DNA of 37,708 nt. It comes from a bacterium. Its GTDB lineage: Bacteria; Bacteroidota; Rhodothermia; Balneolales; M1805. The notes beneath the pieces are model-generated. The model worked only from the letters and a program-made list of their open reading frames with translations. It ran no database searches and was not told where the DNA came from. The position numbers and the translations under genes were made by a program. The stretch lies in the NCBI GenBank assembly GCA_006226965.1, contig SBGQ01000052.1, forward strand, positions 1 to 37,708, in the 5' to 3' direction. Below are positions 24,123-26,372 of the stretch, one piece after another; the stretch's first letter is position 1; each line of letters starts with the position of its first letter.

Positions 24123-24154
24123 TTGCATCGTATTTTTAAAAAACCATATCATTG
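24123..24154 (+). promoter_or_regulatory. Possible Bacteroidota-type promoter of the methionine leader
   Basis: TTG at 24123-24125 and TATCATTG at 24147-24154 resemble the -33 (TTTG) and -7 (TAnnTTTG) elements of Bacteroidota, with 21 bases between them and one mismatch in the -7 box. The implied start of transcription is near 24158-24161, almost on the leader ORF's ATG. That would make a leaderless or very short 5' end, so this assignment is weak. Confidence 0.25.
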
Positions 24155-24159
24155 ATGCC

Positions 24160-24225
24160 ATGAAACAAATCGCAACTCTTATTTCTTGTTGTATGTGTTG
24201 TATGCGCGAAAGCCATACAGCATAG
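24160..24225 (+). CDS. Cysteine-rich leader peptide of the methionine operon (21 residues)
   Basis: ATG at 24160 and TAG at 24223-24225 enclose 21 codons. The core reads SCCMCCMRE: TGT codons at positions 10, 11, 13 and 14 and ATG at 12 and 15. Four cysteines in five residues is far above chance and is the hallmark of a leader peptide that senses charging of one tRNA. The stop codon lies inside the 5' arm of an antiterminator (24218-24227), whose 3' arm is shared with a terminator. When Cys-tRNA is short, a ribosome stalled on the TGT codons leaves 24218-24227 free and the antiterminator can form. A ribosome that reaches the stop codon covers that arm and the terminator wins. The peptide itself probably has no other function. 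Confidence 0.8.
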   Translation: MKQIATLISCCMCCMRESHTA

Positions 24226-24262
24226 GGATTTGTTCAAACTGTTTTTTGAAAGCCCTGTGTTG
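24218..24262 (+). promoter_or_regulatory. Antiterminator of the cysteine attenuator
   Basis: CAGCATAGGG (24218-24227) pairs with CCCTGTGTTG (24253-24262) over ten continuous base pairs, two of them G-U. An upper stem TTCAAA (24233-24238) with TTTGAA (24245-24250) stacks inside it. The lower 5' arm overlaps the leader stop codon. The lower 3' arm contains the bases that form the 5' side of the following terminator, so both structures cannot exist together. Confidence 0.7.
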
Positions 24263-24284
24263 AATCTCGACTCAGGGCTTTTTT
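24249..24284 (+). terminator. Attenuator terminator after the leader peptide
   Basis: AAAGCCCTG (24249-24257) pairs with CAGGGCTTT (24273-24281). After one T-T mismatch an inner stem GTTGA/TCGAC (24259-24263/24267-24271, one U-G) closes on loop ATC. Six T follow the stem (24279-24284). It lies between the leader peptide and the SAM riboswitch and, when formed, would stop transcription before the riboswitch is made. Confidence 0.9.
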
Positions 24285-24301
24285 GTTCTTTCTCTTGATT
24301 T

Positions 24302-24534: not shown

Positions 24535-26372
<1,838 letters not shown>

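Follow-up and report, generated by a model that had tools for sequence, protein, structure and literature searches.

A cysteine- and methionine-rich leader peptide with a probable transcription attenuator in series with a SAM-I riboswitch upstream of metY and metX in Balneolales

Judged by its anatomy, the element that precedes the SAM-I riboswitch of a metY/metX operon in a 37,708-nt stretch of DNA (the window, one contig of a 3.78-Mb assembly) is a leader-peptide attenuator, real and well supported by comparison. We consider it very probable that this element is a transcription attenuator worked by the translating ribosome and placed in series with the riboswitch. This reading draws on the sequence, on the alternative structures predicted from it, and on conservation and covariation across the order; from these we infer translation, stalling, the ligand and the direction of the response. 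The element has the features of its class: pathway codons are clustered (CCMCCM ahead of metY/metX), an intrinsic terminator lies between the ORF and the first gene, and, in predicted folds, an antiterminator shares the terminator 5' arm and has its second arm positioned at the stop codon, where a protector would block it as long as no ribosome stalls. Coordinates of all features are given in Table 1.

Table 1. Features of the attenuator, the riboswitch and the operon in the window.
Feature	Start	End	Strand	Evidence
Putative promoter: TTGCAT (24123-24128), 18-nt spacer, TATCAT (24147-24152)	24123	24152	+	Pattern match only
Leader ORF MKQIATLISCCMCCMRESHTA, stop included	24160	24225	+	Sequence; Cys/Met-rich ORF at 36/38 metY/SAM-I loci of the order
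Protector hairpin: segment A (24194-24207) with B (24212-24224)	24194	24224	+	Minimum-energy fold of 24160-24290; A:B pairing of at least 6 pairs predicted in 30/30 loci
Antiterminator: B (24218-24227) with C (24253-24262), inner helix 24233-24238/24245-24250	24218	24262	+	Fold -18.5 kcal/mol; B:C p<0.05 vs shuffles in 28/30 loci
Intrinsic terminator 1: C (24248-24257) with D (24273-24282), T run 24279-24284	24248	24284	+	Fold -20.9 kcal/mol, z -5.9; compensatory changes at 6/9 pairs
boxA-like heptamer GTTCTTT, between attenuator and riboswitch	24285	24291	+	34/38 metY loci vs 0/12 control SAM-I loci
SAM-I riboswitch aptamer (RF00162)	24300	24423	+	80.6 bits, gathering score 44.4
Intrinsic terminator 2, riboswitch expression platform: 24469-24481/24491-24503 and T run	24469	24508	+	-20.8 kcal/mol, z -5.95
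First operon gene, CoA-binding domain protein	24535	25011	+	PF13380, 1.2e-38
metY, O-acetylhomoserine sulfhydrylase	25053	26372	+	TIGR01326, 687.8 bits, cut-off 495.1
OsmC-like protein	26555	27103	+	PF02566, 9.5e-18
metX, homoserine O-acetyltransferase	27193	28245	+	NF001209, 380.7 bits, cut-off 331

On inspection of the sequence, the leader ORF runs from an ATG at 24160 to a TAG at 24223-24225 and encodes 21 residues, with the regulatory codons C C M C C M at 24187-24204: TGT TGT at 24187-24192 and again at 24196-24201, and Met codons at 24193-24195 and 24202-24204. The 21-codon Cys-rich ORF described in an earlier note on this DNA was thereby recovered, its coordinates and codon positions agreeing base for base. 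The upstream gene ends at approximately 24075 and the operon begins at 24535. No Shine-Dalgarno sequence was found by inspection 5' of the window leader AUG. A -10-like hexamer ends 5-8 nt 5' of the leader AUG in approximately 17 of 36 leader loci of the order, the window among them (with a TTGCAT/TTGACA-like -35), a spacing from which transcription would be expected to start at the AUG; the window leader ORF is probably leaderless, with its transcription start at or next to 24160. The remaining leader loci, mainly from one family, have a longer 5' end of approximately 23-59 nt. A simple promoter/terminator scan missed the leader promoter and both terminators because its criteria are narrow.

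Energy-model folding returned the two mutually exclusive structures proposed in the earlier note, both conserved at 30 loci of the order, together with a third, the protector hairpin (24194-24207/24212-24224), which the note did not contain and which is predicted to sequester the antiterminator arm. The whole of 24160-24290 folds with a z of -6.7. As a partial transcript, the RNA of 24215-24266 adopts the antiterminator with its inner helix (z -4.6, matched by 0 of 200 dinucleotide shuffles), bearing out the pairing first put forward from inspection. The RNA of 24240-24290 adopts terminator 1 with an inner 5-bp helix, a fold likewise matched by 0 of 200 dinucleotide shuffles. Here the terminator originally drawn (24249-24257/24273-24281) kept its stem and its run of six T, and the stem proved to be one pair longer. 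In the window, 31 nt separate the first Cys codon (24187) from the antiterminator arm (24218), which itself contains the stop codon.

As the earlier note had suggested, regions upstream of SAM-I and metY were compared in relatives. A SAM-I search of 60 genomes of the order Balneolales was used and 50 loci were taken, the window's own included, with 38 ahead of metY and 12 ahead of metH or another gene; they span five families and share ancestry, so that counts are not numbers of independent events. By inspection, a Cys/Met-rich leader lies upstream of SAM-I at every metY locus except L006 and L009 (36 of 38) and at none of the 12 loci ahead of other genes. A crude rule (at least 3 Cys in an ORF of 8-45 residues) flags approximately 30 of those 38 metY loci together with 2 of the 12, and those 2 are unlike the rest. 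Example leaders are, in order, MIFAYAYMALCCMSCHRR, MKNKPLYMMCCCMHPNPGS, MSKQQNTSIAKRSCMMLCS, MKLTNQYIAREMMCMCCYMQTPH, MKNLTNNIDYCICIMCMCCCST and MKKVMSMSMSMMSCLGG, the last from locus L028. An intrinsic terminator follows the leader ORF on its 3' side at 30 of 36 loci, and the complete four-segment attenuator is present at 30 of the 36. Despite a leader, no intrinsic terminator was found at L013, L018, L022, L031 and L041 (part of the f4 lineage) or at L001, and the mechanism at these loci must therefore differ. L013, L022, L031 and L041, which belong to a single Balneolales lineage, have longer leaders of 31-37 residues with MRMCM-like repeats and long internal hairpins.

For the antiterminator, each locus was searched past its last Cys codon, up to the terminator, for an arm pairing with the terminator 5' arm, and the pairing was compared with that of shuffles. 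The arm was better than shuffles (p<0.05) in 28 of 30 loci, with a mean z of -2.9; at L047 it was no better (p 0.20). It sits at the leader stop codon, starting -15 to +3 from the end of the stop across the 30 loci, and at every one of them 6-12 bases of the terminator 5' arm (segment C) are common to both structures. The terminator 5' arm itself varies by lineage (GAACCC, AGTCCTTT, AGGCTCTC, GGCCCTTTC, AAAGCCCT), with compensatory change at 6 of 9 consensus terminator pairs in a terminator-only alignment of relatives. In the multiple alignment of B-C-D the C arms of L025 and L030 were out of register, and pair counts were therefore made locus by locus and on the terminator by itself. With a leader at 36 of 38 metY/SAM-I loci and three alternative structures in 30, the attenuator anatomy predicted for the window is beyond chance. 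A strong terminator between two transcription units could also be an ordinary terminator of the upstream gene, standing 3' of a non-functional short ORF and ahead of the SAM-I leader, in which case there would be no attenuation. We find this scarcely credible: antiterminator, protector and ORF are conserved together with the terminator in 30 loci, promoter-like sequence lies directly 5' of the ORF and past the upstream gene, and SAM-I loci ahead of metH carry no such unit.

In the attenuation that we favor, RNA polymerase would begin transcription at the leader AUG or next to it, with a ribosome following. Given an ample supply of charged tRNA-Cys (and probably of charged tRNA-Met), the ribosome would reach the stop codon and cover B, C:D would pair, and transcription would terminate at approximately 24284. 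When either charged tRNA is short, the ribosome would wait at the Cys/Met codons and open the A:B protector, leaving B free to pair with C, so that terminator 1 could not form and polymerase would continue to the SAM-I riboswitch, which would stop it again when SAM is high. With two switches in series, full expression of the metY/metX operon would thus require both a shortage of a sulfur amino acid and low SAM. A ribosome covers approximately 12 nt beyond its A site. Since a median of 21 nt (30 loci) separates the first core Cys codon from the antiterminator arm, a ribosome at that codon would leave the arm free; one at the stop codon would cover it, because the arm sits there. Comparison across the order thereby lends support to what had been argued from the window: attenuation by a translated leader, ribosome spacing suited to it, and control of the metY/metX operon, in which a CoA-binding protein gene comes first and metY and metX follow.

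A different use of the same ORF would be nascent-peptide arrest, in which the CCM(S/P)C peptide itself stalls the ribosome in response to a metabolite, not to uncharged tRNA. The invariance of CCM(S/P)C within one family fits such arrest, but across families the peptides share Cys/Met richness only, with no fixed motif or spacing, and many leaders are just 13-21 residues long; we regard it as highly improbable.

The leader codons suggest which tRNAs would be read under ribosome-mediated attenuation. The 36 leaders contain 126 Cys (17.7%) and 90 internal Met (12.7%) in 711 residues after the start, with at least 2 Cys in 35 of 36 leaders, internal Met in 34 of 36, and TGT used 80 times versus 46 for TGC. 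The earlier proposal of a sensor of Cys-tRNA charging agrees with Cys-rich leaders order-wide, but not in naming cysteine alone, since Met is enriched as well and its conservation is almost as wide as that of Cys; the sensor is better described as one of Cys and/or Met tRNA charging, and may read either or both. There is a high likelihood that cysteine would be sensed, and methionine would probably be sensed too. Were cysteine sensed alone, the Met codons would serve RNA pairing (e.g. TGTATG in the protector hairpin) or be present by chance. Cys is indeed the most constant feature of the leaders, the window Met codons participate in the A:B hairpin, and the leaders of L001 and L018 contain Cys and no internal Met. 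We nevertheless consider sensing of cysteine only rather unlikely, as internal Met recurs across families with differing RNA sequence, the L028 leader has a total of six Met against a single Cys, and both residues are mixed in outgroup leaders from Ignavibacteria too. In one family the core TGTTGTATG hardly varies even at the DNA level, with nothing but synonymous changes in its Cys codons; codon and RNA constraints therefore overlap in that family, and RNA pairing could account for some of the codon conservation.

Downstream of the attenuator, the aptamer scored above the gathering threshold of the RF00162 model. An antiterminator competing with riboswitch terminator 2 is weakly supported (z -1.0). 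The products of the operon, MetX and MetY, make homocysteine, the methionine precursor. Two proteins encoded in the same genome, one like cystathionine beta-synthase (509.4 bits against a cut-off of 510.25) and one like cystathionine gamma-synthase/lyase, make homocysteine a plausible source of cysteine; it probably feeds cysteine besides methionine. Sensing of cysteine, and probably of methionine, would suit an operon with these products. Synthesis of cysteine solely through homocysteine was rejected, as a cysE-like gene and cysM are also present. No second leader with CCxCC codon runs was obvious among 20 loci inspected elsewhere in the genome.

Of the 38 metY loci of the order, 34 have the heptamer GTTCTTT 15-25 nt 5' of SAM-I; none of the 12 metH-type SAM-I loci of the order has it (shuffles, 1.7%). 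GTTCTTT matches boxA (the NusB/S10 site), and the same heptamer is found in Balneolales 16S-23S spacers, a comparison made on relatives because the window's own assembly has no rRNA. Elsewhere in the phylum it lies within 60 nt 5' of SAM-I at 43 of 90 loci (L131-L220), often directly after the promoter. GTTCTTT was rejected as a part of the attenuator, since it also precedes SAM-I riboswitches that have no leader. We know of no boxA at the 5' end of SAM-I mRNAs.

Beyond the order, the leader-terminator-SAM-I-metY arrangement, with similar leader and terminator, was also found at L068 (labelled Ignavibacteria) and L093 (labelled Bacteroidetes). In a wider sample of the phylum the leader rule gave few matches at SAM-I loci, most SAM-I/metY loci having neither leader arrangement; the Balneolales arrangement is therefore not phylum-wide. 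Several Bacteroidia (Pontibacter, Thermonema, Solitalea, Splendidivirga and others) have a short ORF that ends in a Cys/Met run shortly 5' of metY (e.g. ...RMCMCCCCC stop; L084, L089, L103, L110, L113, L118, L129, L192 and L197). Where mapped (L084 and L089), this ORF lies 3' of the SAM-I aptamer, reversing the order of the two sensors, and no intrinsic terminator was evident at the Bacteroidia Cys/Met ORFs before metY. At L105, upstream of a Candidatus Eisenbacteria metY, an ORF ending ...CASMQMSMCMDMCMCTHARRLEIGE is a possible independent Met/Cys leader.

Tentatively, and with a confidence that stops a little short of calling it likely, we propose an undescribed sulfur-status gate common to the whole order. 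A leaderless Cys and Met leader would report on two tRNAs, shortage of either opening terminator 1, in series with SAM-I, where low SAM would open terminator 2, and with a Nus-factor boxA between them; the related Bacteroidia leaders past SAM-I would make this a recurrent pairing across Bacteroidota/Chlorobiota. If the attenuator reading is right, the element would be, within the literature searched, the first leader-peptide attenuator described for methionine/cysteine genes in the phylum and the first peptide attenuator and SAM riboswitch in series on one operon. On one mRNA it would form a natural logic gate that takes Cys-tRNA, Met-tRNA and SAM as three related inputs. The combination of attenuator and SAM-I would suggest how these bacteria balance cysteine versus methionine at the RNA level, and the large comparative set makes the sensed amino acid directly testable.

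In the open-access literature searched, neither a Cys/Met leader in series with SAM-I nor a cysteine or Cys/Met attenuator described for the window's phylum was found. This agrees with the earlier note, which knew of no described cysteine attenuator in this group; such attenuators are known in mycobacteria and Rhodobacterales. For Flavobacterium psychrophilum, clues for leader attenuation of amino-acid operons have been reported, the main text giving no details (PMC9723704). The classical trp, his, leu and thr attenuators share with the window a short ORF with clustered codons, a protector, an antiterminator, an intrinsic terminator and a stop codon at the antiterminator arm; unlike them, the window has Cys/Met codons, a probably leaderless ORF, a SAM-I riboswitch downstream and a phylum for which no such attenuator was found described. 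The His_leader model RF00514 aligns over the whole element because the architecture is the same, at a sub-threshold 28.6 bits versus a gathering score of 49; identity as a His leader was rejected on this score and for want of a His run.

In mycobacteria, cysteine leader peptides lie upstream of cys operons without conserved terminators, and Rho has been suggested (PMC1262725). Leaderless poly-Cys uORFs there are reported to be cysteine-responsive attenuators of sulfur genes (Canestrari et al. 2020, as cited in PMC13236596). They resemble the window in having a Cys-codon uORF ahead of sulfur genes, one that in the window is probably leaderless and probably attenuates these genes. They differ in having no conserved intrinsic terminator, Cys runs in place of a Cys/Met mix and no riboswitch in series, and in belonging to unrelated bacteria; the window has two Cys pairs split by Met, and a leaderless start that is putative, being judged from promoter spacing only. 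Upstream of cysS in Rhodobacterales, uORFC-8-2 combines two tandem Cys codons with a terminator in a predicted ribosome-mediated attenuation (PMC8632094). Like the window, it has tandem Cys codons in a uORF and a terminator stem with a U run; unlike the window, it controls cysteinyl-tRNA synthetase, has two Cys codons and no reported SAM riboswitch, and belongs to a different phylum. Identity with uORFC-8-2 was rejected, the window's downstream genes encoding a CoA-binding protein, MetY, an OsmC-like protein and MetX and not CysS. The mgtCBR operon of Salmonella carries two attenuators in one leader mRNA, sensing ATP and proline (PMC3641672), and so resembles the window in placing two sensors in one leader mRNA on the same operon; both of its sensors are peptide ORFs, whereas the window sets a peptide ORF before a metabolite-binding riboswitch.
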